16,222 nt of DNA. Origin: Candidatus Zixiibacteriota bacterium (GTDB taxonomy: Bacteria; SM23-81). Below the pieces are notes generated by a model. That model saw nothing but the letters and a program-made list of their open reading frames with translations. It made no database searches and had not been told where the DNA came from. Positions within the stretch are counted from its first letter, which is position 1; each line of letters begins with the position of its first letter. The stretch lies in assembly GCA_030628225.1 (NCBI GenBank), contig DAOVRJ010000020.1:1-16222 (forward strand), written 5' to 3'. Positions 4,326 through 14,602 of this stretch are shown here, one piece after another. The position numbers were made by a program, and so were the translations under genes.

Positions 4326-4344
4326 GTATCTGGTATACCTTGAA

Positions 4345-4490
4345 GGGGTTGGGGGTTAGGGGTTGGGGGTTAGGGGTTAGGGGTTAGGGGTTAGGGATTC
4401 CGCCTCCATCCCCCAACATACAACTCACTGTGATAGAAAATGGTTTTCTTGTTTTCCCCTAAACCCTAACCCCTCTACCCTAAATCCTGC
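4345..4490. repeat. Heptad inverted-repeat element A (GGGGTTA family)
   Basis: The left arm 4345-4400 is eight in-phase heptamers: GGGGTTG, GGGGTTA, GGGGTTG, then four GGGGTTA and a degenerate GGGATTC. The right arm 4456-4490 is five heptamers of the complementary strand (CCCCTAA, ACCCTAA, CCCCTCT, ACCCTAA, ATCCTGC). Between them lies a 55-base spacer containing ACTCACTGTGATAGAA (4423-4438). The arms can pair as a long hairpin, and the G-rich arm is a strong G-quadruplex candidate. A copy in inverted orientation lies at 13174-13336. Confidence 0.9.
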
Positions 4491-4549
4491 TGGGGCGGGG
4501 ACGGGAAGGACCCCTTTTTAATCCAATTTTCAATCTTAAACGCACTTCA

Positions 4550-5353
4550 TCACGACTTCTTCCCCTTCTGCCTCTTGATGTAGGCTACAGCCTCACTCAA
4601 ATCGTGGGGAGAGTCCCGGTAGGAACACTTGAGCTCCGCCGCTGCCTGGCGGTCCACAACCAGGGTCGCCTGACGGTGCAGTTGGACGATGGTGGCCGGC
4701 ACCAGGGCTGTGATCGGCCCCTCCACGGTGATGGCGATGGCGTGGGCCTTGTTGACGCCGGTGGCCAGCAGCAGAAGGCGCTGTGAGTTCATGACCGTGC
4801 CGATGCCCATGGTGATGGCGTACTTGGGCACGTCCTCGATGCGCTCGAAAAAGCGGGAATTATTTTGTATGGTGTTATTGTCCAGTGTTTTGACCCTGGT
4901 TCTGGAACCCAGGGAGGAGCCGGGCTCGTTGAAGGCGATGTGCCCGTTGACCCCGATGCCCAGAAGCTGGATGTCAATGCCACCCGCATCTTTGATGTCT
5001 TGCTCGTACTGCCGGCAGGCTTCCAATAGATTCTCGACCATGCCCGGGGGCAGGTGGATGTTGCCCGGTGGGATATTGATGTGGTCGAAGAAGTTCTCCT
5101 TCATAAAATAGTGGTAGCTCTGCTCGTGCTCCGGCGGCAGCCCGATGTACTCGTCCAGGTTGAAGGTGACTACCTGGGAGAAGTCCAGCCCCTCTTCCTT
5201 GTGCAGCCGGATCAACTCCTTGTAGGTACCCATGGGCGTGCTGCCCGTGGCCAAACCCAGGACGGCCCTCGGCTTCTCGCGCACCACCTCGGCGATAATC
5301 TTGGCCGCCAGCCGGCTCATCTTATCGTAGTTTTCCTTGACGATCACTTCCAT
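4550..5353 (-). CDS. nagB: Glucosamine-6-phosphate deaminase
   Basis: Converts glucosamine-6-phosphate to fructose-6-phosphate and ammonia in the cytoplasm, the last committed step of amino-sugar catabolism. A 267-residue protein aligning end to end with the B. subtilis-type NagB: VLGLATGSTP (31-40), TFNLDEY with catalytic Asp67 (63-69), GIGVNGHIAFNEPGSS (132-147) carrying His138 and Glu143, with Asn136 where E. coli has Asp (as in B. subtilis), then SRTRVKTL and ALTMGI-like AITMGIGT. The reading frame could be extended to 5431, but ATG 5353 fits the family N-terminus (MEVIVKENYD), has AAAAGGA 9 bases upstream, and the longer version would run through the -10 and -35 boxes. It is monocistronic and convergent with the GHL10 operon. 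Catabolism of hexosamine released by those enzymes is an attractive link, but inferred. Confidence 0.95.
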   Translation of the reverse strand: MEVIVKENYDKMSRLAAKIIAEVVREKPRAVLGLATGSTPMGTYKELIRLHKEEGLDFSQVVTFNLDEYIGLPPEHEQSYHYFMKENFFDHINIPPGNIHLPPGMVENLLEACRQYEQDIKDAGGIDIQLLGIGVNGHIAFNEPGSSLGSRTRVKTLDNNTIQNNSRFFERIEDVPKYAITMGIGTVMNSQRLLLLATGVNKAHAIAITVEGPITALVPATIVQLHRQATLVVDRQAAAELKCSYRDSPHDLSEAVAYIKRQKGKKS

Positions 5354-5402
5354 GTGGCAAGGTCCTTTTGTGAAAAATGGTGAACCTGTCGTTTGAATCA
5401 AA

Positions 5403-5431
5403 AATATAACATCGGCTGGCAGGAGGGTCAA
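5403..5431 (-). promoter_or_regulatory. Sigma70-type promoter of nagB
   Basis: Read on the minus strand: TTGACC (5431-5426), 17-base spacer, TATATT (5408-5403). Transcription would begin near 5396, giving a leader of about 43 bases to ATG 5353. CCCC precedes the -35 box, as at other promoters in the window. Confidence 0.75.
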
Positions 5432-5517
5432 GGGGAAATGAGGATCATGGATCGGGACCGTGAGAAATACCGCAAGCTGGAAGCTAGTTTAAGGTTGTGG
5501 ATACTGGTATTAAGACC

Positions 5518-5606
5518 GGATCCTGGATACTAGATGCTGGATTCTGGTTGGAAAAAGGTATTTTTCGAACATAGACAGTTTTTTCCAGAATCCAGGATCC
5601 AGCATC
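5518..5606. repeat. Heptad inverted-repeat element (GGATNCT family), copy 1
   Basis: The left arm 5518-5547 reads GGATCCT, GGATACT, AGATGCT, GGATTCT, GG in exact 7-base phase. The right arm 5585-5606 reads CCAGAAT, CCAGGAT, CCAGCAT, C, the complementary heptamers. The 37-base spacer is A/T-rich. CCAGAATCCAG is an 11-base perfect match to the complement of the left arm's inner end. Related copies lie at 13038-13111 and 14344-14551. Confidence 0.88.
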
Positions 5607-5735
5607 GGCGAGCGCAAACTGAATCTTAACTGCTAGTCGTGACCATCGGGCCATAGGCGTCACTGAGTGCTACAACCTGATCTACCCGCATGAGGGGGTG
5701 GCGGAAGACAGCTGCTGTCATTCTTTGAATGACGG

Positions 5736-5844
5736 AATGAAAAATGGAAAATGGAAAATGGATCAATTCAAACCGGCGATATAAGATAACGATCTGTAAG
5801 TGAAGTTCATTTTGAAATTTGCACTTTACATTTTTCAATTTGCA
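5736..5844. repeat. Heptad inverted-repeat element (TTTTNCA family), copy 1
   Basis: The left arm 5736-5763 has AATGAAA, AATGGAA, AATGGAA, AATGGAT-type heptads (TG dinucleotides at 5738, 5745, 5752, 5759). The right arm about 5817-5844 has ATTTGCA, CTTTACA, TTTTTCA, ATTTGCA (CA at 5822, 5829, 5836, 5843). The two arms are inverted and separated by about 55 bases. Confidence 0.82.
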
Positions 5845-5847
5845 TTG

Positions 5848-5867
5848 GCGGCACCGACAGGTGCCGC
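5848..5867. repeat. Palindromic hairpin next to heptad array
   Basis: GCGGCACC (5848-5855) and GGTGCCGC (5860-5867) form a perfect 8-bp stem with loop GACA. No T-run follows on either strand, so it is not a canonical terminator. AGGTGCCG also begins the hairpin beside the same heptad family at 14508. Confidence 0.7.
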
Positions 5868-5990
5868 TAAAGCGCCGGCTGAAGCGAGGGAGGGCGGAGG
5901 GATGCAACCCAAGGGAGCATCAGGTGGGGTGGACATCCCCCTCCCGAATTCTCAGGAGGGCCTTGATCTTTCCGCCTCACCGGCGGTAGA

Positions 5991-7625
5991 TTATTCACTC
6001 CCGGCGAATGGTCCCCTACGAATGACCGCGTTTTTCCCCTTGAGCGTGAACGGTCGGTTAATGACCAACGAAGCCCCGGAATAAGTGTTATCGGACCCGG
6101 CCTTGAATATCAGCGTGGCGTAATCTGGCGCCTCGACAATGGCCTCCTCGATGTCCTCGTATGGATCGTTGGGAGTGCCATCGCCTGGATTGGAGTCGCC
6201 GACAAACCTGACCACACCCTGCGGCGCTATGCGGGTGGTGTGCTGCTGGTCGATGTTGAAAGGACCTGGAACATTATCGCAGGTATACCAGGCCGCGGCG
6301 CCACCCCAGCCCATGTTCATCTTGAACTGCCTGTCCGGATCGGTCCATTTGTTATAGCCCAACACCACCCAGGCATGTCCCCCTCCCCCTAAGGTATCGT
6401 GCCGGGTTCCTCTGAGGTGCAAGGGCCGCAGCCACTGAATCTCCCCGGTCATGGTGTTGATGTTCCTGGATCCATATGTGGCATCGATGTCGTAGCGAAA
6501 ATGGTCCTGGAGGGCGCTTTCAACATTCGCGCTGTTCGCCAAAGATCCTTTCACCCCGTAAGTCATATCAACCGCAATCCCAGCATGATAGCACAGCTCG
6601 GCCACCTCGTCATCGCCGGCATCTGGGGGATCCGTGTGATCGTCTTCCATAAGGCTCCAGTTGTAGGTTGTGGCCCCGAAATTAGCATAGGAGTATGTTG
6701 ACGCAGGGGTGAGGTGGTTGCAAAGAGTTTGCAGGGCATTTTGATAACTGGCATCATCCCTGATATTCCATGCCTTAATGTAGAGGCTTTCATCCCAGTA
6801 GCCGTTCATGCGCAGTTTGCCGCCCCCGGCCGCCGCCCATTCCAGACGGCCCACCCAATCCGGATCCGCCCCAATGTTGGGGTTTGTCGCCAAAGGCTCC
6901 TCATCCCAGGTGTTCCGCCATCGGTAATTGTAATGCACATGCCCGTCACTTTGGCCCTTGTTGGGCCATTTCCAGTAGTACATGAGCTGGGACGTGGCCG
7001 TGGCCACACACCCGACCACACAATGCTCATCCGCTCCGGGGGTGAGCTGGGGGCAGCGGTCATTATAGGGCGAGCCCTGGTCCCAGGTGCAGGTCAGATC
7101 CACCTCCATCTGCATCGGCTCGACTTTGTTTTCCCCTCTCGGAGGAACGCAACCGGCTATGAGATCTTCCCAGAAATTGGTTCTCTTCGCCAAAGCCTCT
7201 CGGTAGCGGAGCACTTCCGGGTCGCCTTTCCGCAAACCTGCCCGCAGATATTTCAGCCTGGTCTCAATCTCCCAGAGAAAATACTGGTAGTCCGGATTCT
7301 GCGGGTCATATGTCCCCTGGGGGCAGTATAAATAGATGGGCAGGACCAGATCATCGGCCCCGCACAGGCAGAACCCACCACCCATAAGGTGCGCGATATA
7401 GCCCACGGTCTCTCCGTCAACTTGATGGGCTTCCATCCTCTCGATGACGGCCTCGGGCTGCGCATCTGCCGTAACGTGGCGCACCCAGGTCTGCACGGCG
7501 GCGCGGACCTCCCCTGCATCCAGCTCTCTGGCTTGAAGAAGCGCAGGCGTCAGAACCAGACAAAAGACCAGAATGGAGATCAGCCACCGGCCTGTCCTGG
7601 ATATGTTGTTTTTCGTCCTTTTCAT
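5991..7625 (-). CDS. Secreted streptopain-family (C10) cysteine protease
   Basis: A 544-residue protein. The start is ATG 7625 with AGGAGGT 6 bases upstream. Residues about 1-32 are a signal peptide. Residues about 35-160 resemble the Spi-type propeptide of C10 proteases. The peptidase domain runs from about 175 to 465: VVGCVATATSQLMYYW (203-218) carries nucleophile Cys206, GGGGHAWVVLGYN (413-425) carries His417, and MGWGG (438-442) matches the conserved Trp-Gly region, so the catalytic residues are intact. A tail of about 75 residues (VRFVGDSNPGDGTPNDPYEDIEEAI... to TLKG near 530) looks like the opening of a right-handed beta-helix (DUF1565-like) and is short, either a remnant or a small targeting module. 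The gene starts 15 bases after the fibre-like gene stop and is almost certainly co-transcribed. Predicted to be exported and autoprocessed; substrate unknown. Confidence 0.92.
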   Translation of the reverse strand: MKRTKNNISRTGRWLISILVFCLVLTPALLQARELDAGEVRAAVQTWVRHVTADAQPEAVIERMEAHQVDGETVGYIAHLMGGGFCLCGADDLVLPIYLYCPQGTYDPQNPDYQYFLWEIETRLKYLRAGLRKGDPEVLRYREALAKRTNFWEDLIAGCVPPRGENKVEPMQMEVDLTCTWDQGSPYNDRCPQLTPGADEHCVVGCVATATSQLMYYWKWPNKGQSDGHVHYNYRWRNTWDEEPLATNPNIGADPDWVGRLEWAAAGGGKLRMNGYWDESLYIKAWNIRDDASYQNALQTLCNHLTPASTYSYANFGATTYNWSLMEDDHTDPPDAGDDEVAELCYHAGIAVDMTYGVKGSLANSANVESALQDHFRYDIDATYGSRNINTMTGEIQWLRPLHLRGTRHDTLGGGGHAWVVLGYNKWTDPDRQFKMNMGWGGAAAWYTCDNVPGPFNIDQQHTTRIAPQGVVRFVGDSNPGDGTPNDPYEDIEEAIVEAPDYATLIFKAGSDNTYSGASLVINRPFTLKGKNAVIRRGPFAGSE

Positions 7626-7640
7626 CGCCGCACCTCCTCC

Positions 7641-10157
7641 CTACTGCAGGGTGACCAGGACCAGGACCAGACCCCGTCCCTCTTTGAGTGAGCTCATAGC
7701 CTTGCCGATGACCGCGCCCTGAGCCCGGGCATGATCGGTGACCTTCATGGCGTGGCCGGAGATGTCCGAGGTGGTCAGCAGATCTCCGGGCAGGATGGAA
7801 CTGTCGGCGGCATCGGCCCAGCAGTAAACGCGGCCGGTCAGGGCGATAGGGTATGATCCGTCGGCGCTCGAGCCCCTCTGCCCCATGAGCATGCCCGTCT
7901 CGATGCCGCCGGCCCCGCTGATGATGCCGGCCACCTTGTGGTCATAGGCCTGGGTGCTGAGAGTCAACTCTCCAGGGTGTTTGGGGTCGATGGACACCAA
8001 CATTCCAGGCTGGGCATCTGCTTCCCCTGTCTTGACCTCGAACTGCTCGGAGAGGTCGCTTCCGCCGGTGAGCTCCAGGACGGAGCAGACCACCCGACCG
8101 TCGTTCTCCACCTTGAAAACGGGATGCCAGCCGCCGGTCCAGCTATCGCAGCGCAGGATGTCGCCACTGCCGTGTTGGGACACCAGCACGACCAGATCGC
8201 TGGACTCGCCGTCGAAGATGCCGGCGATGCCGCTAGAGTGGTCATTCTCCACGTACACCGTGGAACCGCCCACCCCGCTGACAGAGGATTTCGCATATAG
8301 CCTGTGGCTGCCCGGGCTGGAAGTGCCCATGCCCACGTTGCCCTGGACCAGCAATCCGTTGCTCGGGGCGGTGGATGAACCCGAATATGATGATCCGACG
8401 ACCATCGCTCCTTCCACGTCGAGCTTGTTTTGCGGATTCGTCGTCCCAAGGCCGATGTTGCCTTGCACCAACAATCCATTAGTCGGAGCAGTATTTGAAC
8501 CTGAATATGACGATCCCACCACCATGGCACCTTCCACGTCGAGCTTGTTTTTTGGGTTCGTCGTCCCGATGCCGATTTTTTCGCTCACGTAAGCCTTCCC
8601 GGAGAAATAACCGGCCCAGGTAGCGCCATTGGCTGAGGCCCAAATTGCATAACCGACGCCTGATGAGCCACTGGCATAGATGGCGCTCCTCCCCGAGCCA
8701 TCGGCAATGGCCTGAATGGCGTCGCCGCCGGTGCCCGTGTTCTTGGCCAACAGGGCAGCACCCAAACTGGACCCATCCCATTCTGAGCGGATTGTATAAG
8801 AGGCTCCTGACGGCCGCACATCCAGATTCGCGGACGGGCTCATCGTCCCGATGCCCACCCTTTGAGTGCCCGTATTAAACCGAATCCAGTCCGAGCCGCC
8901 GTCGGCCAGAATACGCACATCGTCATCTGGCTGCAGATAGATATCGTCATCAGCGGTGAGAAACAAATCATTCGAGTATTCGTAAACCCTGGTGTTATCA
9001 TCGTAAAAGGCGATGTCACCACCGGCATTGAGCCTGATGTCCCCGGCGACGTGAAACTTCTCGGCGGGGCTGGTGGTCCCGATGCCCACGTTGCCGGTTG
9101 CATCGTCGATGTACAGGCGGGTCGTTCCAGCCGTCTGCAACTGTAATGGGCTGTTGCTGGAGAGATTGCTGGAAAATAGGGTGTTGTCGACCTTTACGCT
9201 CCCGGCCACATGTAGTTTTTGAGCAGGGCTCGCCGTCCCGATGCCCACGTTGCCGGACACGGCGGAGTACATGTCGGAGCCGGAAATGGTCCAGTCGCCA
9301 TCAGCGCCACCTGCTGCCGGCAGCCAGCTCCCCTCACCCGATACATTTGAGGTGAGAACATAACCGTCCGATGCACCGGCAGTCATCTTGAGCCCCGTCA
9401 TCTTGACCGTTCCGGCCACATCCAATTTCTCAGCCGGACTGGTCGTCCCGACGCCCACGTTGCCGGTTGCATCAACATAAAGGGCATTAGCCGGATCGCC
9501 ATCGGCGGCATCTAGATGATCCAGATCCCCCTGGTTCACCCAGCGGCCGTCCAGATCGCTCAACGCTTGACCCTCAAGATGATGGGCATCGTCGGCCACC
9601 GCCGCGCTGTCGGCCACCGTCGAGGCGGCCGTCTGGCTAAACGCTGCCGTGTCGGCATGGACGGCGTGCTGGGCATCTGTGGCCCAATCGGACGTGGCGG
9701 CGTGATCGGCCGTCTCAGCCCGTATGCCGTAGGCCACACTGATCAGCGGCTTGCGCGGAGACAGGACCTCAACACCCACCTCTGTCTGCAGCCACAAAGT
9801 CGAGCCGTCGAAGAGATCCCCCGGAAATGCGGTGACGCTTCCCAGAAGGACCTGAAATAGGCCGTTGCTGACCTCTACCGCCGGATGCGTCTCAGACCAC
9901 AGCTCAACGCCTTTAATCTCGGAGTCGTAGAGCCGGAAGGTCATCTCCAAAGTTGCGTTGATGGCCACCGAATCTGCGGCATCCACCAGGTAGCCCTGGT
10001 AGTTCAACTGGTTGGGCACCGATTTTGAGAAGCCCAAGTTGCGCACGTGGCCGTCCAGACCCGCCGTTTTCCCCGTGGCCATCGTGGGGGCCACACAGAC
10101 AAAAAGGCAGACAAGGGCGGCCAGAGCCACGAAGACCACTGGATTTCTGGCTCTCAC
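7641..10157 (-). CDS. Large secreted fibre-like protein with GIGT repeats
   Basis: An 838-residue protein. I place the start at GTG 10157: AAGGAGGT sits 5 bases upstream and a signal peptide follows at once (RARNPVVFVALAALVCLF). The frame is open to 10232, but that extension has no ribosome site and precedes the signal. Residues about 48-145 form a domain common in surface proteins of candidate phyla (LNYQGYL, MTFRLYD, LWSETHP, GLFQVLLGS, SPRKPLISVAYGIRAE). An Ala/Asp/His-rich linker (about 147-195) follows. Seven GIGT-type motifs (such as NVGVGTTSPAEKLDVAG) begin near residues 233, 303, 356, 433, 527, 566 and 606, as in tail-fibre-like trimeric proteins. The C-terminal domain about 695-838 (DLSEQFEV, PGMLVSIDP, VAGIISGAGG, ALTGRVYC, PGDLLTTSD, GHAMKVTD) ends GRGLVLVLVTLQ. 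Probable extracellular adhesin or fibre; function not shown by sequence. Confidence 0.88.
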   Translation of the reverse strand: MRARNPVVFVALAALVCLFVCVAPTMATGKTAGLDGHVRNLGFSKSVPNQLNYQGYLVDAADSVAINATLEMTFRLYDSEIKGVELWSETHPAVEVSNGLFQVLLGSVTAFPGDLFDGSTLWLQTEVGVEVLSPRKPLISVAYGIRAETADHAATSDWATDAQHAVHADTAAFSQTAASTVADSAAVADDAHHLEGQALSDLDGRWVNQGDLDHLDAADGDPANALYVDATGNVGVGTTSPAEKLDVAGTVKMTGLKMTAGASDGYVLTSNVSGEGSWLPAAGGADGDWTISGSDMYSAVSGNVGIGTASPAQKLHVAGSVKVDNTLFSSNLSSNSPLQLQTAGTTRLYIDDATGNVGIGTTSPAEKFHVAGDIRLNAGGDIAFYDDNTRVYEYSNDLFLTADDDIYLQPDDDVRILADGGSDWIRFNTGTQRVGIGTMSPSANLDVRPSGASYTIRSEWDGSSLGAALLAKNTGTGGDAIQAIADGSGRSAIYASGSSGVGYAIWASANGATWAGYFSGKAYVSEKIGIGTTNPKNKLDVEGAMVVGSSYSGSNTAPTNGLLVQGNIGLGTTNPQNKLDVEGAMVVGSSYSGSSTAPSNGLLVQGNVGMGTSSPGSHRLYAKSSVSGVGGSTVYVENDHSSGIAGIFDGESSDLVVLVSQHGSGDILRCDSWTGGWHPVFKVENDGRVVCSVLELTGGSDLSEQFEVKTGEADAQPGMLVSIDPKHPGELTLSTQAYDHKVAGIISGAGGIETGMLMGQRGSSADGSYPIALTGRVYCWADAADSSILPGDLLTTSDISGHAMKVTDHARAQGAVIGKAMSSLKEGRGLVLVLVTLQ
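8341..8580 (-). repeat. 120-bp tandem duplication inside the fibre-like gene
   Basis: Bases 8341-8460 and 8461-8580 are adjacent, gap-free, diverged copies. They encode two 40-residue units, each with GTTNP, NKLDVEGAMVVGSSYSGS and GLLVQGN, differing at only a few residues. The second GIGT-motif pair therefore arose by recent in-frame duplication. Confidence 0.9.
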
Positions 10158-10162
10158 GGCAC

Positions 10163-10170
10163 ACCTCCTT
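10163..10170 (-). promoter_or_regulatory. Ribosome binding site fixing the GTG start at 10157
   Basis: On the minus strand AAGGAGGT lies 5 bases before GTG 10157. No comparable site precedes the upstream ATG codons at 10232 or 10202, so this decides the start. Confidence 0.85.
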
Positions 10171-10258
10171 GAAAGGGTGAGAGTTTTGAAACCAGAGAAC
10201 ATCGAAATTGAGAGGCATTTTGCCTCACACAACTAAAACCCTCCGAAATATTCACCAT

Positions 10259-10287
10259 ATTAAGGGTTAATGGAGCATTGGTGTCAA
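10259..10287 (-). promoter_or_regulatory. Probable promoter of the fibre-like/C10 protease operon
   Basis: On the minus strand: TTTTTTC tract, TTGACA (10287-10282), 17-base spacer, CTTAAT (10264-10259); a TTAATA alternative sits one base further. The -35 box is perfect, the -10 moderate. The leader to GTG 10157 would be roughly 95 bases. Confidence 0.6.
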
Positions 10288-10324
10288 GAAAAAAGTGAAA
10301 TAATTCCAGGGCTCAGAGAAGTAC

Positions 10325-10345
10325 CGTGAAACGTGGATCGTGAAG
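10325..10345. repeat. Short heptad array CGTGAAA/CGTGGAT/CGTGAAG
   Basis: Three in-phase heptamers. Complementary ATCCACG-like heptads occur at 10987-11014, so the two arrays bracket the whole repeat-rich gap in inverted orientation. A related run is at 5442-5462. Confidence 0.65.
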
Positions 10346-10350
10346 AAGAG

Positions 10351-10470
10351 GGATTTAGAGTTGAGCGGTCCCACTCCTCTCCTCCATTGCTTACTTTCAG
10401 TGATAGAACTTGAGCTTTTGGGATTCTATTCTTTTCCCTAATCCCTATTTAACTCCCTAATCCGCAATCC
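10351..10470. repeat. Degenerate heptad element C (GGGGTTA family)
   Basis: A weak left arm (GGATTTAGAGTT, 10351-10362) and a right arm with CCCTAAT and CCCTATT (10436-10449) enclose a spacer containing CAGTGATAGAA (10398-10408) followed by a T-rich segment. Order and orientation match element A, where the core is CACTGTGATAGAA and the right arm begins CCCCTAA. Treated as a diverged copy. Confidence 0.55.
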
Positions 10471-10511
10471 TGGACTAAAGGTAGGTCATAGGGGCAAGGG
10501 CGGGAGGGGTA

Positions 10512-10546
10512 AATTTTCAATTTAAAATGTACAATTTGCAATTTTA
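10512..10546. repeat. AT-rich heptad array (TTTTNCA family), copy 2
   Basis: AATTTTCAATTTAAAATGTA followed by CAATTTGCAA shows CA dinucleotides at 10518, 10532 and 10539, i.e. in 7-base phase with one unit lacking CA. It lies directly beside the hairpin cluster that starts at 10561. Confidence 0.65.
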
Positions 10547-10560
10547 AATGAGTTTTTTAT

Positions 10561-10634
10561 GAGGGGGAAGTGTCCCCCTCGCTTCAGCCCGCGCGGCGCT
10601 TCGCGCCACCGGCTGGCTATGGCCTGCGGCCATA
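10561..10634. repeat. Cluster of three G/C-rich hairpins
   Basis: GAGGGGG/CCCCCTC (10561-10567 with 10574-10580, loop AAGTGT), GGCGC/GCGCC (10595-10607, loop TTC) and TATGGCC/GGCCATA (10618-10634, loop TGC) follow in tandem. Bases 10576-10594 match the complement of 5872-5890 at 18 of 19 positions. Confidence 0.75.
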
Positions 10635-10765
10635 CGGTCCTCGCTTTTAGCTCGGCCCGCCGCCAGCCTCGCGGTCTTCCGCTACCCCCTCTGCGGTACG
10701 ATTTGGGAATAGCTCTCAGTTGAGGTTTATTGCCGCAGAGACACAGCCCTATCTTATGCCCATGT

Positions 10766-10794
10766 GTAGGGGCGGGTTTGAAACCCACCCCTAC
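10766..10794. repeat. 29-base palindrome of the GTAGGGG type
   Basis: GTAGGGGCGGGTTT (10766-10779) pairs with AAACCCACCCCTAC (10781-10794) with a single C/A mismatch and a one-base centre. Palindromes starting GTAGGGG are dispersed in many environmental bacterial genomes. No T-run follows. Confidence 0.8.
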
Positions 10795-10815
10795 TAATAA
10801 GAACACAGGCCACAT

Positions 10816-10836
10816 CGATCTCCGATTCCCGACAAC
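10816..10836. repeat. Short heptad array CGATCTC/CGATTCC/CGACAAC
   Basis: CGA recurs at 10816, 10823 and 10830, then out of phase at 10838. Weak, but it has the same 7-base period as the other arrays. Confidence 0.45.
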
Positions 10837-10884
10837 CCGACTCACGTAACGCATATCTAAACCGACAACCAATCTCCGACAAAT

Positions 10885-10910
10885 AAAAAAAGGGCGAGGA
10901 AACCTCGCCC
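10885..10910 (-). terminator. Intrinsic terminator downstream of the FN3 gene
   Basis: Read on the minus strand, GGGCGAGG (10910-10903) pairs with CCTCGCCC (10899-10892) over a TTT loop and is followed by seven T (10891-10885), then ATTT. It lies about 100 bases after the stop of the FN3 gene. The flanking GTAGG shows it also belongs to the GTAGGGG palindrome family, so a dispersed repeat appears to supply the terminator. Confidence 0.8.
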
Positions 10911-10964
10911 CTACAAGAAAAATCCAAACGGTTATCGAATCACATCCGGCATTTCCAGACGCGC

Positions 10965-10984
10965 GGGCACGGCATGCCGCGCCC
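10965..10984. repeat. Palindrome GGGCACGGCATGCCGCGCCC
   Basis: A 20-base palindrome with one A/C mismatch pair, a third member of the G/C-rich palindrome set in this gap. Confidence 0.65.
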
Positions 10985-10986
10985 CT

Positions 10987-11014
10987 TCGATCCACAAATC
11001 ACGATCCACGGATT
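10987..11014. repeat. Heptad array TCGATCC/ACAAATC/ACGATCC/ACGGATT
   Basis: Four in-phase heptamers that run into the stop codon of the FN3 gene (11013-11015). They are complementary in style to the CGTGGAT array at 10325-10345. Confidence 0.6.
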
Positions 11015-11588
11015 ATTTGATCCCGCTTATCATCTGACTGTCGAACTCCCCCACGCGATTGGAATCCTCCGCTAGGTTGCGGCTGGGATCGGTCGCCTTG
11101 ACCACGTAAAAATAATTGGTGAGTGTATCTCCAGCGGCACCGGGGTCGAGATACGAGGCGCCCTTGGTCCCGTAGATGGAATCCCCGGCGCTGGGCTCAA
11201 AAAGCGGATCCGCCCCCCGGTAGACCACGTAATGGTCGATGGCCACATTGTCCTTGGCGTGGGACCACTGCAACACGATGTCGCTGACCGAAAGACTAGC
11301 TGTCAGGTCGCCGATAGCCGAAGGAGCCACCGGATCCTGGTACCAGAACCCGGCGCCCACCTGAAAATTGGTGCTGGTGGAAGGTCCGATGGGCGTGGAC
11401 TGGCCCAGGGTGGACTTCATCTTGAAATTCGTGGAGCTGGCCTCTCCGCCGGAGGAGGCTACCACCGAGGTAGCCAATTCTGTGTCCGCCGTGGCCAGGC
11501 CGGTCAAAGTGAAAGAGAGCAGAAAAGCAGCCACCAGCAGGATCAAGTTGCCAGTGAGCTTTTTCGGTCTTGCTTTTTTCACATCCAT
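11013..11588 (-). CDS. Small secreted FN3-domain protein
   Basis: A 191-residue protein; ATG 11588 is preceded by GAGGAGGGG about 8 bases upstream. A basic N-terminus and hydrophobic segment (about 14-34, ending ATA) form a signal peptide or anchor. Residues about 43-83 carry a motif seen in surface proteins of candidate phyla (VVASSGGEASSTNFKMKSTL, then GQSTPIG, TNFQVGAGFWY). Residues about 88-181 are one FN3 domain (IGDLTASLSVSDIVLQW, HYVVYRG, TNYFYVVKATD) ending SNRVGEFD. The same SN-x-VGEFD ending closes the FN3 of the GHL10 protein at 1990-4248. It starts 68 bases after the fibre-like gene at 11657 with no terminator between, so the two are probably co-transcribed. Likely a structural or binding protein; no catalytic domain seen. 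Confidence 0.8.
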   Translation of the reverse strand: MDVKKARPKKLTGNLILLVAAFLLSFTLTGLATADTELATSVVASSGGEASSTNFKMKSTLGQSTPIGPSTSTNFQVGAGFWYQDPVAPSAIGDLTASLSVSDIVLQWSHAKDNVAIDHYVVYRGADPLFEPSAGDSIYGTKGASYLDPGAAGDTLTNYFYVVKATDPSRNLAEDSNRVGEFDSQMISGIK

Positions 11589-11656
11589 CTCAACGCCCCT
11601 CCTCGATTCCTTGCTGTATAGACAAAGGACCAGTGGTTTCTATATCTCTCCGCTAG

Positions 11657-12850
11657 CTACTTTTTCTCCACCTCCTGCAGAACGAATCTAAACACCTTGC
11701 CTGTCTTCAAGTTCTCCAAATACAGCCCTTCTTCGTCCTCGAACATCCTCCACAATTCCTGGCCATCCTTCTGGAAGAATATATCCCCGGTATGGTAAGC
11801 ATAGGCTTGTATGTCGCCTTCGACATCCAGCTTGTATGCCGGGCTGGTCGTGCCGATGCCCACATTGCCTGTGGTGGCATTTACAGCCACTCGTGTGGCG
11901 CCTGCATCCCAGTCGTAAATTCTAAAATCTCTGTTGGTACCGGTTAGAGGAACACCTATCGCCCAAAGATTCACATCGTTGTCCGCGAACAGGATCCGGG
12001 AGATGGCATTGGTACCGTTGTGAGCGTTCAATTTAAGTTCCGCATCTCCATGAGTGGCCTTCAATCGCAGATAAGCCGCTTCACCATAGCCATCTGATAA
12101 AACGTCTAACTTCACCCCGGGCGACGAGGTTCCGATGCCCACATTGCCGTTCTGTGAAAGGAACATCGTTGTGCTGGGGCTGGCATCATCATCCCGAAAG
12201 TATAATCCCTGTCCGTATAACACATACATGCTGTTATCGCCGGCCCGGGGCCAGAGGTAACGTTCATAGGTCCCGCCTGTGTTCCTGGCCACGAAGCAGG
12301 TGGCGTTCTCCACGCCAAAAAGATTGCCTGGGCCTCCGCCAAGGGTGAGTGGAAGTGTCGGACTGGTCGTCCCGATGCCCACGTTGCCGCTGACCCGATA
12401 GACATCGCCGCCGGAGATGGTCCAGTCCCCGTCATCGCCAACCGGCGCATTCCGAGCATAATCGGCGCTGTCAGCCTCGGCGGCCCGAAATGCATAGCCC
12501 ACTCCCCCAATTTTCTGTCTGGGCGACAGCTCGGGGTCACCCCCCACCTGGACTGCCAACCACCTTGAAGATTCGTTGAAAACCGTGTCCGGGATGGCGT
12601 TCACCCGACCCAGAAGGACATTGAAAAGTCCCTGACTCACCGTCACCAACGATTGTGTTTCGCTCCAGACCTGAATTCCCCCCGTCGAATCGGTGTAAAT
12701 AGCGAAGGCCATGGAGACGGTGGTGTCCAGGGCCACGCCGTACTGATCGCACAGGGTCCCCTGCCAGCCCATCTCACAGACGCAATCGGCCAAGGCGTTG
12801 GCCGACAGCATGACGATGCATAATACGAGGATAATAACGATGGTTCTCAT
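11657..12850 (-). CDS. Secreted fibre-like protein with GIGT repeats (shorter paralogue)
   Basis: A 397-residue protein. The start is ATG 12850, with GGAGGT 6 bases upstream and a signal peptide immediately after (MRTIVIILVLCIVMLSANAL); the frame is open to 12964, but that extension would overlap the promoter -10. Residues about 25-125 repeat the N-terminal domain of the 838-residue protein (MGWQGTL, VSMAFAIYTD, VWSETQS, GLFNVLLG, ELSPRQKIGGVGYAFRA). GIGT-type motifs start near residues 156, 236 and 329. The C-terminus differs from the larger paralogue: GDIFFQKDGQELWRMFEDEE (355-374), then GLYLENLKTGKVFRFVLQEV, a short capping module seen in other fibre-like proteins. Four Cys lie in the first 35 residues (11, 23, 25, 34). 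Probably extracellular; role unknown. Confidence 0.86.
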   Translation of the reverse strand: MRTIVIILVLCIVMLSANALADCVCEMGWQGTLCDQYGVALDTTVSMAFAIYTDSTGGIQVWSETQSLVTVSQGLFNVLLGRVNAIPDTVFNESSRWLAVQVGGDPELSPRQKIGGVGYAFRAAEADSADYARNAPVGDDGDWTISGGDVYRVSGNVGIGTTSPTLPLTLGGGPGNLFGVENATCFVARNTGGTYERYLWPRAGDNSMYVLYGQGLYFRDDDASPSTTMFLSQNGNVGIGTSSPGVKLDVLSDGYGEAAYLRLKATHGDAELKLNAHNGTNAISRILFADNDVNLWAIGVPLTGTNRDFRIYDWDAGATRVAVNATTGNVGIGTTSPAYKLDVEGDIQAYAYHTGDIFFQKDGQELWRMFEDEEGLYLENLKTGKVFRFVLQEVEKK

Positions 12851-12856
12851 GGCTGC

Positions 12857-12862
12857 ACCTCC
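12857..12862 (-). promoter_or_regulatory. Ribosome binding site fixing the start at 12850
   Basis: On the minus strand GGAGGT is followed by GCAGCC and then ATG 12850. It rules out the longer open frame from 12964. Confidence 0.82.
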
Positions 12863-12954
12863 CGTGGGAAAAAGTTCGGAAATAAAACGAGAGCAAAAAA
12901 GTAATGCTGTCAATAGGCCACTTTTTCTCAAAAAATCTCCTTGATCTCCATTAC

Positions 12955-12983
12955 ATTCTAGCACAAGATGCCGTTTTTGTCAA
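12955..12983 (-). promoter_or_regulatory. Strong sigma70-type promoter of the 397-aa/FN3 operon
   Basis: On the minus strand: TTTTTCCCC tract, TTGACA (12983-12978), 17-base spacer, TAGAAT (12960-12955). The leader to ATG 12850 is about 98 bases. Confidence 0.82.
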
Positions 12984-13037
12984 GGGGAAAAATACTTCTG
13001 TGTATTAAGCTTGAGACCCGTTATGGGTTTCAAAGCT

Positions 13038-13111
13038 TGATTCTGGATACTGGATTCTGGATAAAAAAAGAATATCCGCTGGGGGTTGTTGTTTTCTAGG
13101 ATCCAGGATCC
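13038..13111. repeat. Heptad inverted-repeat element (GGATNCT family), copy 2
   Basis: The left arm has TGATTCT, GGATACT, GGATTCT, GG (13038-13060). The right arm has AGGATCC, AGGATCC (13098-13111). The spacer is A-rich then G/T-rich, about 37 bases, the same size as in copy 1. Confidence 0.85.
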
Positions 13112-13118
13112 GCTTTTT

Positions 13119-13132
13119 ACGATTCACGATTA
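13119..13132. repeat. Two-unit heptad ACGATTC/ACGATTA
   Basis: Two in-phase heptamers followed by ACGG. Similar to the ACGATCC units at 10987-11014. Confidence 0.45.
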
Positions 13133-13173
13133 ACGGCTTTTTCCCTTGACAAAAGCACCTCCCAACCCAACCA

Positions 13174-13336
13174 GGATTTAGGGTATAGGGTATAGGGGTT
13201 AGGGTAAAAGCAAGAAGACCATGTTCTATCACAGTGAGTGGCATGTTGGGGGTGGAGACGGGGTCCCTAACCCCTGCCCCCTAATTCCTGTCTTTCCGGG
13301 GTAACTAACCCCTAACCCCTGATCCCTAACCCCCAT
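13174..13336. repeat. Heptad inverted-repeat element B (GGGGTTA family)
   Basis: The left arm 13174-13208 has GGATTTA, GGGTATA, GGGTATA, GGGGTTA, GGGTAAA. The right side has TCCCTAA, CCCCTGC, CCCCTAA, TTCCTGT (13264-13291) and, after a phase break, CCCCTAA, CCCCTGA, TCCCTAA, CCCCCAT (13309-13336). The spacer contains TTCTATCACAGTGAGT (13224-13239), the exact complement of the element A core, and the similarity continues on both sides. Element B is therefore an inverted copy of element A. Confidence 0.88.
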
Positions 13337-13345
13337 TCTTTTTCC

Positions 13346-13374
13346 TTGACAAACTCCTCCCCTGACCTTACCCT
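13346..13374 (+). promoter_or_regulatory. Possible promoter of the GNAT gene
   Basis: TTGACA (13346-13351), 17-base spacer, TACCCT (13369-13374). The -35 box is perfect and the -10 poor. It lies 43 bases before ATG 13417 and next to the end of element B. Confidence 0.5.
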
Positions 13375-13416
13375 ATCACCAGACGATTCCAACCAATCAC
13401 AATCACAAGGAAAGTC

Positions 13417-14310
13417 ATGGAGATCACCACCATCGTCCCGGGGGACCTGCCGGCCCTGAGCCGCTTTTGCAACCAGAACATCGAATACGACACATTCACC
13501 CCGCAGCTCATCGAGGACAAAACCTTCGGGGACCCACACTTCGATCCCGAAAGCGTCCTGGTGAGCAAGGAGGGGGGCCGGATCGTGGCTTTCATGCCCG
13601 GGCTGTGGAAGGAAAAGGACGGCCGGCGTGTGGGCTGGATAAAGTGGTTTGCCGTAGAGCGGGACCGAAGGCGCCGGGGGATCGGGTCGCTCCTGTTGGA
13701 GGAGCTGGAGGATCGTTTCCGAAAACAGGGGGTTCAGGAGATCCGCGTCTCCGACTGCGCCCCCAACTATCTCCAGCCGGGCATCGATCCCCGCAACACC
13801 GCAGCCGTGGCCTTTCTGCTCAGAAGAGGCTATGCCAAGACGGGGGATTTCTTCCACATGGAGACGGAACTGGCCGAGCTGGATTTGAAGACGGAACAGA
13901 GGGAAAAAACCTTAGGGGAAGAGGGATTCAGCTTTCGTCGGCTGGAACTTCAAGATCGCGAAGGATTTCTGGCTTTTTTGGGGGGAGATCCCCGCGAGGA
14001 GGCCTACCGGGTGGACAAATGCTATCAGCAGGAGCCCATCAGCTGCCACATCGCTCTGCACGGTGGGAACGTGGTGGCCTACGCCCAGTACGATGTGGAC
14101 CGTCCCGGCTGGTTCGGGGGCATGCGTACCGCCGACCAATTCCGCCGAACCAAAGGACTGGGTACCATCCTGTTCAAGCGGTGCCTGGCGGATATGCGCC
14201 GGCTGGGCTATCGCAGCGCGCTCATCGGCTGGGTGGCTCCCCTGTACTTCTACGCCAAGATCGTTGATGCCCGGGTGTGTAGGACGATGTGGCTGATGCG
14301 CAAGAGTTGA
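13417..14310 (+). CDS. Two-domain GNAT N-acetyltransferase
   Basis: A 297-residue protein; ATG 13417 is preceded by AAGGAAAG. Residues about 1-150 are a complete GNAT domain: the acetyl-CoA motif A is WFAVERDRRRRGIGSLLLEE (77-96), with the R-x-x-G-x-G loop at 86-90, and RNTAAVAFLLRRGYAKTG (126-143) closes it. Residues about 170-295 form a second, more divergent GNAT domain with RRTKGLGTILFKRCL (243-257) and a shortened end (LYFYAKIVDARVCRTMWLMRK) where FYxKLGF is usual. The acceptor is not readable; tandem GNAT proteins act on antibiotics, small amines or thiols. The stop codon lies at the start of a purine-rich repetitive stretch (14303-14340), so the natural C-terminus may have been altered by repeat sequence. 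Transcribed alone. Confidence 0.82.
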   Translation: MEITTIVPGDLPALSRFCNQNIEYDTFTPQLIEDKTFGDPHFDPESVLVSKEGGRIVAFMPGLWKEKDGRRVGWIKWFAVERDRRRRGIGSLLLEELEDRFRKQGVQEIRVSDCAPNYLQPGIDPRNTAAVAFLLRRGYAKTGDFFHMETELAELDLKTEQREKTLGEEGFSFRRLELQDREGFLAFLGGDPREEAYRVDKCYQQEPISCHIALHGGNVVAYAQYDVDRPGWFGGMRTADQFRRTKGLGTILFKRCLADMRRLGYRSALIGWVAPLYFYAKIVDARVCRTMWLMRKS

Positions 14311-14402
14311 GAGAGCTCGGAGAGGTGGGAGAGTTGGAAAGGCAGATGCTGGATGCTAGATACTGGATCCTGGATAAAGGCAAATACAATGCAAAGGCGG
14401 AG

Positions 14403-14430
14403 ATTCGAGATTCGAGAATCGAGATTCGTA
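14403..14430. repeat. Heptad array ATTCGAG
   Basis: ATTCGAG, ATTCGAG, AATCGAG, ATTCGTA in exact phase. TTCGAGAATCGA is nearly self-complementary, so the array can fold on itself. Confidence 0.85.
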
Positions 14431-14456
14431 AAAGCAGCGTTCAACTGCCATTCATA

Positions 14457-14491
14457 TTTTGCATTTTTCACTTTTCATTTTTCATTTTGCA
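14457..14491. repeat. Heptad array (TTTTNCA family), copy 3
   Basis: TTTTGCA, TTTTTCA, CTTTTCA, TTTTTCA, TTTTGCA: five exact-phase units with CA at 14462, 14469, 14476, 14483 and 14490. A G/C-rich hairpin follows 16 bases later, as beside copies 1 and 2. Confidence 0.88.
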
Positions 14492-14507
14492 TTTATTATT
14501 CGTAGGT

Positions 14508-14533
14508 GCCGTCGGGTGGCCTCACCCGACGGC
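14508..14533. repeat. Perfect 11-bp palindromic hairpin
   Basis: GCCGTCGGGTG (14508-14518) and CACCCGACGGC (14523-14533) with loop GCCT. GTAGGT precedes it. No T-run on either strand, though it sits between convergent genes and could still hinder read-through. Confidence 0.8.
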
Positions 14534-14602
14534 CCGGTGGATCCAGGATCATTCTTTAATGACACCCATAATTCTTGCGACGAGGCAGAAAAAGGAAGGG
14601 TA

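Follow-up and report, generated by a model that had tools for sequence, protein, structure and literature searches.

Intergenic DNA in the contig analyzed here, a stretch of 16,222 nt from a Candidatus Zixiibacteriota genome (the window; contig C164 of genome G000, which comprises 2.34 Mb in 306 contigs), carries tandem arrays of several unrelated heptamers, and many of these arrays are the arms of dispersed, sometimes nested hairpins, an organization that is new here. The explanation that we prefer, and consider slightly more probable than not, is that these are small hairpin repeats with arms grown by slippage, spread by some copying route. Throughout, G numbers denote genomes and L numbers individual sequences.

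All five window gaps longer than 250 bp contain period-7 arrays, eight altogether, against a mean of 0.02 and a maximum of 1 in 400 dinucleotide-preserving shuffles. The fraction of matches at lag 7 in these gaps was 0.361 compared with 0.2505 in the shuffles (z 12.2), and every other period from 4 to 13 gave at most one array; a period-14 signal is also present because 14 is a multiple of 7. Tandem Repeats Finder (TRF) placed arrays at 4344-4396, 5518-5547, 5736-5762, 13179-13206, 14345-14375, 14400-14428, and 14456-14494, with partner arrays at 4457-4488, 5584-5606, 13039-13063, and 13305-13333. The seven arrays listed in an earlier, sequence-only reading of the window are therefore real, with coordinates right to within a few bases. 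That reading had also placed arrays in every large gap and in no gene, and a scan of the window coding DNA indeed returned no period-7 array in any recognized gene. The arrays do not, however, "fill" the gaps as it proposed, since they cover only about 15% of the five, and its CGTGGAT/ATCCACG family amounts to only about two units at 10334-10345 and 10986-11008, the best form being three units of the related word ACGATTC at 13115-13136. The words themselves are as unrelated as claimed, with a mean pairwise circular distance of about 3.0 versus 3.2 for random heptamers. Several window sites are copies of a few elements, and the arrays thus do not all count as independent.

The same period stands out across the genome, of which we read 61 contigs, 50 of them unselected (346 kb). 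In the unselected contigs we found 34 intergenic and 15 "coding" arrays of period 7, and the predicted genome-wide excess over neighboring periods, most of which gave 0 to 3 intergenic arrays, is present. The corresponding intergenic/"coding" counts were 0/0 for periods 4 and 5, 0/7 for period 6, 3/3 for period 8, 1/2 for period 10, and 0/2 for periods 11 and 13. Period 9 ranks second in the intergenic DNA of this genome, with 12 intergenic and 6 "coding" arrays. Period-7 arrays favor intergenic DNA although coding DNA is about eight times larger, and the "coding" arrays that we inspected lay mostly in short or spurious open reading frames (ORFs) or at ORF ends, none being demonstrated within a conserved domain. 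A laxer scan of all 61 contigs gave 154 arrays, the main words being AACCCCT (34 arrays), AATCTCG (33), AGGATCC (21), AAAAATG (20), AACTCGG (12), and AACCGGG (7). Words of the cyanobacterial short tandemly repeated repetitive sequences (STRRs) were not among these main words.

What looks like simple recurrence of words in G000 reflects in part dispersed hairpin elements that have been copied, the G-rich family being the clearest case. This family is a dispersed element of roughly 150 to 250 bp in which a GGGGTTA array, a conserved core (CTCACTGTGATAGAACATGGTCTTCTTG), and a TAACCCC array follow one another; at least nine aligned copies exist in the genome, and the window carries two of them in opposite orientations (Table 1). 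Loops were homologous in 27 of 45 pairs of copies of the G-rich family and in all three pairs of the GGAACTC family. The other families have nonhomologous loops or occur as single arrays, unlike the dispersed copies with inverted-repeat ends of the G-rich element. Nesting is evident in the dispersed palindrome at 10554-10868, the loop of which harbors a TTTTNCA heptamer hairpin in L022 and L141, whereas the copies in the window, L156, and L144 have a plain loop. The G-rich array at 4345-4396 contains four or more GGG/GGGG runs, which would allow G-quadruplex formation; to judge from their sequences, the other families cannot adopt this structure.

Heptamer arrays are also found well beyond this genome. 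The same-family genome G001 has 12 intergenic period-7 arrays and has the words CGAGATT and ATTCACG in common with G000, and the unrelated genomes G068, G186, and G228 show the same pattern with other words. The pattern CGARTYT x3 was present in 6 of 336 genomes. In the array-richest of these, G068 (1.0 Mb), 180 kb held 55 intergenic period-7 arrays of more than 10 words, the next most frequent period being 8 with nine arrays. One intergenic region of G068 accommodates five different heptamer arrays in less than 300 bp (L344:3998-4275). The G228 tiles yielded 19 intergenic and 13 coding period-7 arrays, compared with at most three intergenic arrays for each unrelated period. G068 and G228 were sampled as contiguous 20-kb tiles, and the genomes were chosen by word match and hence are a nonrandom sample of bacteria. 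Period 7 did not dominate at 80 nagB loci sampled from many phyla (10 intergenic arrays, versus 8 for period 8 and 11 for period 9), so the trait is patchy. Likewise, the GGGGTTA word was absent from all 20 relatives searched and is therefore not a family-wide word.

An orthologous site in Butyricimonas shows that the word may change while the step does not. At this intergenic site, L095 (Butyricimonas synergistica DSM 23225) has an (ATTGAAA)n array (7394-7430), L083 a (TTTTAGA)n array (7474-7500), and L081 both TTTTAGA and AAATCGT arrays (4785-4815), whereas L070 has a single TTTTAGA unit (8407-8418). In other words, the word differs between relatives and the period stays 7. At a second site, an ATTGAAA array is present in L095 and L081 and absent in L070. 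Together with the other words in G001, G068, G186, and G228, this supports the proposal of the sequence-only reading that a shared mechanism fixes the step at 7 and leaves the word free, although the idea is not new.

In G228, heptamer hairpins also occur in frame within genes. Hairpins of the form (GTTTCGA)n-loop-(TCGAAAC)n lie within prmC (L337:2335-2431), carA (L230:1495-1530), and a gene for a CopA-like copper ATPase (L217:1451-1529), and solved homologues lack most of the 26 to 35 residues present exactly at the hairpin sites. Thus, HemK residues 106 to 113 correspond to query residues 129 to 165 for prmC, CarA residues 180 to 188 to query residues 178 to 206, and CopA residues 426 to 428 to query residues 499 to 526. 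The encoded peptides are of the type SSFEFRV..loop..KPETRNSK, with SSFEFRVSS and NPKPETRNSK as markers. By inspection, similar hairpins occur in G228 genes that we name, from sequence only, as encoding a histidine kinase, a GHMP-like kinase, and a glycosyltransferase-like ORF product. In G002, which belongs to the phylum of the window, repeated C-terminal domains contain the peptide SGQRSAVS, encoded by CAGTGGT arrays.

According to our preferred explanation, a seed hairpin would be copied to new intergenic sites, giving rise to several families, sometimes with one inside the loop of another, and each arm would lengthen, shorten, and drift in 7-nt steps by strand slippage. Such stepwise change would leave the word free and the step fixed. 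The excess of period 7, the homologous cores and loops, the nesting, the tendency of one and the same arm of a family to be the 5' one, the crowding of arrays at contig ends, and the in-frame insertions in G228 all speak for this explanation. Evidence of the slippage type includes pure arrays of 15 units in G193, higher-order repeats of 14 nt in L126, and the TTTTAGA unit that is single in L070 and expanded in L083 and L081. We infer that slippage is the source of the 7-nt step and that the spread is transposition-like and enzyme driven, and we think that the arrays are mostly tolerated parasitic sequence.

Several observations weigh against this explanation. The loops of the in-gene GTTTCGA hairpins of G228 were homologous in none of 10 pairs, a result not expected if whole units are copied, and the in-gene cases come from other genomes with other words, none being demonstrated in the genome of the window itself. 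Neighboring arrays of the same family were direct nearly as often as inverted (28 versus 26), and most neighbors (87) belonged to different families. Two of six window segments (14400-14500 and 5728-5850) fold no better than shuffles, and a third folds only weakly better. By eye, no target-site duplication was seen at nested or in-gene copies. Each of the 11 heptamer-bearing genomes checked has Y1 transposases (Y1_Tnp), but so do 20 of 30 background genomes. A Y1 transposase is therefore possible as the mover but not indicated, its occurrence not being discriminating.

A wider claim can be formulated, namely, that there is a cross-phylum class of mobile hairpins with stems always built of 7-nt units, in which one conserved copying process sets the step and leaves the word free, and which invades genes in frame at protein surface loops. 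We regard this as tentative and, as it stands, doubtful.

An alternative that we consider rather unlikely is that the arrays arose independently by polymerase slippage in place, with 7-nt steps favored by polymerase contacts, and that inverted neighbors and shared words are secondary. The dominance of heptanucleotides among long simple repeats in most genomes and the mechanism proposed in 2007 (as described in PMC4679880) argue for it, as do the TTTTAGA expansion in Butyricimonas and the pure long arrays in G193. It does not readily explain, however, why individual words, unrelated to one another, are found again at dozens of sites (34, 33, 21, 20, and 12 arrays for five words), why conserved cores lie between the arms, or why the arm order is biased. 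Moreover, conservation exceeds 80 to 90% at most positions of a word family, with free variation at one or two, for example, at the third position of AGGATCC (34/27/22/17), and such position-specific conservation is not predicted by slippage acting locus by locus.

That same conservation would be expected if the heptamers were functional, serving as repeated targets of a protein that binds DNA or RNA, or as structured RNA regulating neighboring genes, which we consider improbable. The words also recur in distant genomes, with GATNCTG x3 found in 7 of 336 genomes (84 matches outside G000, compared with 2 for the reversed pattern), and TAACTGA repeats upstream of starts in Beggiatoaceae have been proposed as translational sites (PMC4679880). 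Against this, arrays are densest in convergent gaps (1.7 per kb, versus 0.7 in divergent gaps), which implies no promoter preference; each genome has many unrelated words; Rfam gave no match at the gathering threshold; and the G228 hairpins lie within coding sequence.

The order of the arms might suggest a telomerase-like process, in which heptamers would be copied onto broken ends from the short RNA template of a reverse transcriptase, generating head-to-head arrays of fixed arm order after joining. Among the inverted pairs that could be scored, the G-rich arm leads in 56 of 63 over all genomes and in 23 of 26 from G000, the word is TTAGGGG-like, and DRT10 is a bacterial reverse transcriptase that makes tandem-repeat DNA (PMC12632851). 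The bias is partly common descent, however, and other intergenic inverted repeats of G000 lean likewise (15 to 4), such that it is clearly special only in G228. A universal rule of G-rich arm first had to be abandoned: the order shows no preference in part of G186, lacks support in G068, and is contradicted by the viral-collection contigs L372 and, apparently, L388. In view of these exceptions, we treat the bias as lineage specific. Both viral-collection contigs carry a dozen or more heptamer arrays, with CCAGAAT arms before TTCTGG arms (apparently so in L388). Given this opposite order and the failure to find RVT_1 in G000, G001, and the array-richest G068 (genomes 92 to 94% complete), we reject telomerase-like addition as very improbable; DRT10 also has a period of 9 nt in the tested system, and many words would require many templates.

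It is likewise very improbable that the arrays are an artefact of assembling or binning a fragmented metagenome genome, for while 44% of arrays lie within 300 bp of a contig end (9% expected) in a genome of 306 contigs, arrays also occur well inside contigs, across dozens of them, and in genomes other than this one, B. synergistica DSM 23225 included. Crowding at contig ends is expected of dispersed repeats that break assembly, and the true number of arrays is probably higher for this reason.

The features of the window are listed in Table 1. Its ten recognizable genes include those for GHL10 glycosidases, a PPIC isomerase, glucosamine-6-phosphate isomerase, a C10 peptidase, a GNAT protein, and a family-2 glycosyltransferase. 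A 120-bp tandem duplication (8337-8576) lies within a long repetitive ORF without a Pfam match. Nonheptameric palindromes of the GTAGGGGCGGGTTT..AAACCC.CCCCTAC type (10766-10797 and 10891-10912) occur in other G000 contigs as well. Another palindrome, CATTGCGAG..GCAATC, is common to the genome of the window (L026, about 235-275) and the distant G186 (L300, L304, L316, and L319).

Table 1. Heptamer arrays, hairpin arms, and associated repeats in the window
Feature	Position	Strand	Basis
GGGGTTA array, 5' arm of G-rich element	4344..4400	+	TRF score 92; period-7 scan
Conserved core (loop) of G-rich element, CTCACTGTGATAGAAAATGGTTTTCTTG	4401..4456	+	Alignment with at least 8 other genome copies
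TAACCCC-type array and element end (CCCTAAATCCTG), 3' arm	4457..4501	+	TRF; alignment; single-stranded DNA (ssDNA) fold of 4352-4490, z -3.2
GGATNCT array, hairpin 5' arm	5518..5547	+	TRF; period-7 scan; ssDNA fold z -4.6 (5518-5607)
AGNATCC array, 3' arm pairing with 5518..5547	5582..5607	+	TRF; ssDNA fold
AAAATGG array	5734..5766	+	TRF; period-7 scan
Weak TTTTNCA-type partner of AAAATGG array	5802..5852	+	Matches copies in L136, L141, L135; fold no better than shuffles
Weak A/T-rich heptamer array	10512..10544	+	TRF; period-7 scan
Dispersed palindrome-rich repeat, not heptameric	10554..10868	+	90% identical to L156 over 317 bp; nested versions in L022, L141
GGATNCT array, 5' arm	13035..13064	+	TRF; period-7 scan; ssDNA fold
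AGGATCC arm, two units, of hairpin with 13035..13064	13095..13112	+	Pairs with 13045-13061 in ssDNA fold, z -2.7
ACGATTC array (relative of ATCCACG word)	13115..13136	+	Period-7 scan
G-rich element copy 2, inverted relative to 4344-4501; arms 13172-13205, 13260-13333	13158..13333	-	84% identical to 4377-4501; alignment
GGATNCT array	14344..14376	+	TRF; period-7 scan
ATTCGAG (CGAGATT) array	14397..14429	+	TRF; period-7 scan; homologous composite in L027, L150
TTTTNCA array linked to CGAGATT array	14455..14496	+	TRF; period-7 scan; 14400-14494 86% identical to L027:5042-5136
Short AGGATCC-type match, two units, possible outer partner of 14344-14376	14538..14551	+	Sequence only

The preference of long simple repeats in bacteria for a 7-nt unit has, as far as we found, been an open question since 2007. 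Multiword genomes, orthologous sites that switch words, and in-frame hairpins in essential enzymes provide material to separate polymerase slippage from transposition. The insertions also account for odd heptad peptides, SSFEFRVSS and NPKPETRN among them, that turn up in the predicted proteins of uncultured bacteria and can lead annotation and structure prediction astray.

Heptamer dominance, multiword genomes, words common to distant phyla, heptamer stems, and in-frame palindromes are each known, and it is their combination that is new as far as we found; in the open-access literature, to which the search was confined (subscription papers lay outside it), we did not find a description of dispersed many-word hairpins together with in-frame insertion in other phyla. 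In 2007, Mrazek described heptanucleotides as the most frequent long simple repeats in the majority of prokaryote genomes and proposed polymerase slippage or contacts as the cause (as described in PMC4679880). The sequence-only reading had cited STRRs as a precedent with one or few words, which is too narrow: several words per genome, with three in Calothrix and a range in Microcystis, as well as heptamer-built stems, are already published (PMC4679880, PMC4692102, PMC4476775).

Rickettsia palindromic elements (RPEs) and miniature inverted-repeat transposable elements resemble the present hairpins in being small palindromic repeats with several families per genome, and RPEs lie in frame inside genes as do those of G228 (PMC10969869). 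RPEs, however, are about 150 bp with a conserved peptide, and heptamer arms are not described for them in that review. The TAACTGA repeats of Beggiatoaceae, cyanobacteria, and Bacteroidetes are likewise intergenic heptamer arrays of a word common to distant phyla (PMC4679880), but they are essentially direct (with one indirect set), consist of one word, and lie upstream of start codons, whereas here we see inverted pairs, many words, and no promoter preference. The STRRs of Calothrix and Nostoc, and GGGAATC in Xanthomonas, are similarly dispersed, mostly intergenic tandem heptamers of several words (PMC4692102). Their words differ from those found here (the G-rich word resembles Nostoc GGGGAYT without being identical), and in our case many arrays form inverted pairs of arms that flank conserved cores. 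Stem P6b of the Nostoc trnL group I intron (TDNGATT / NNTGAGT) shares the stem of complementary heptamers, the alternative words in relatives, and the added side stem-loops (PMC4476775). In that case, however, a single intron site is concerned, whereas the hairpins described here are dispersed intergenic elements of several families.

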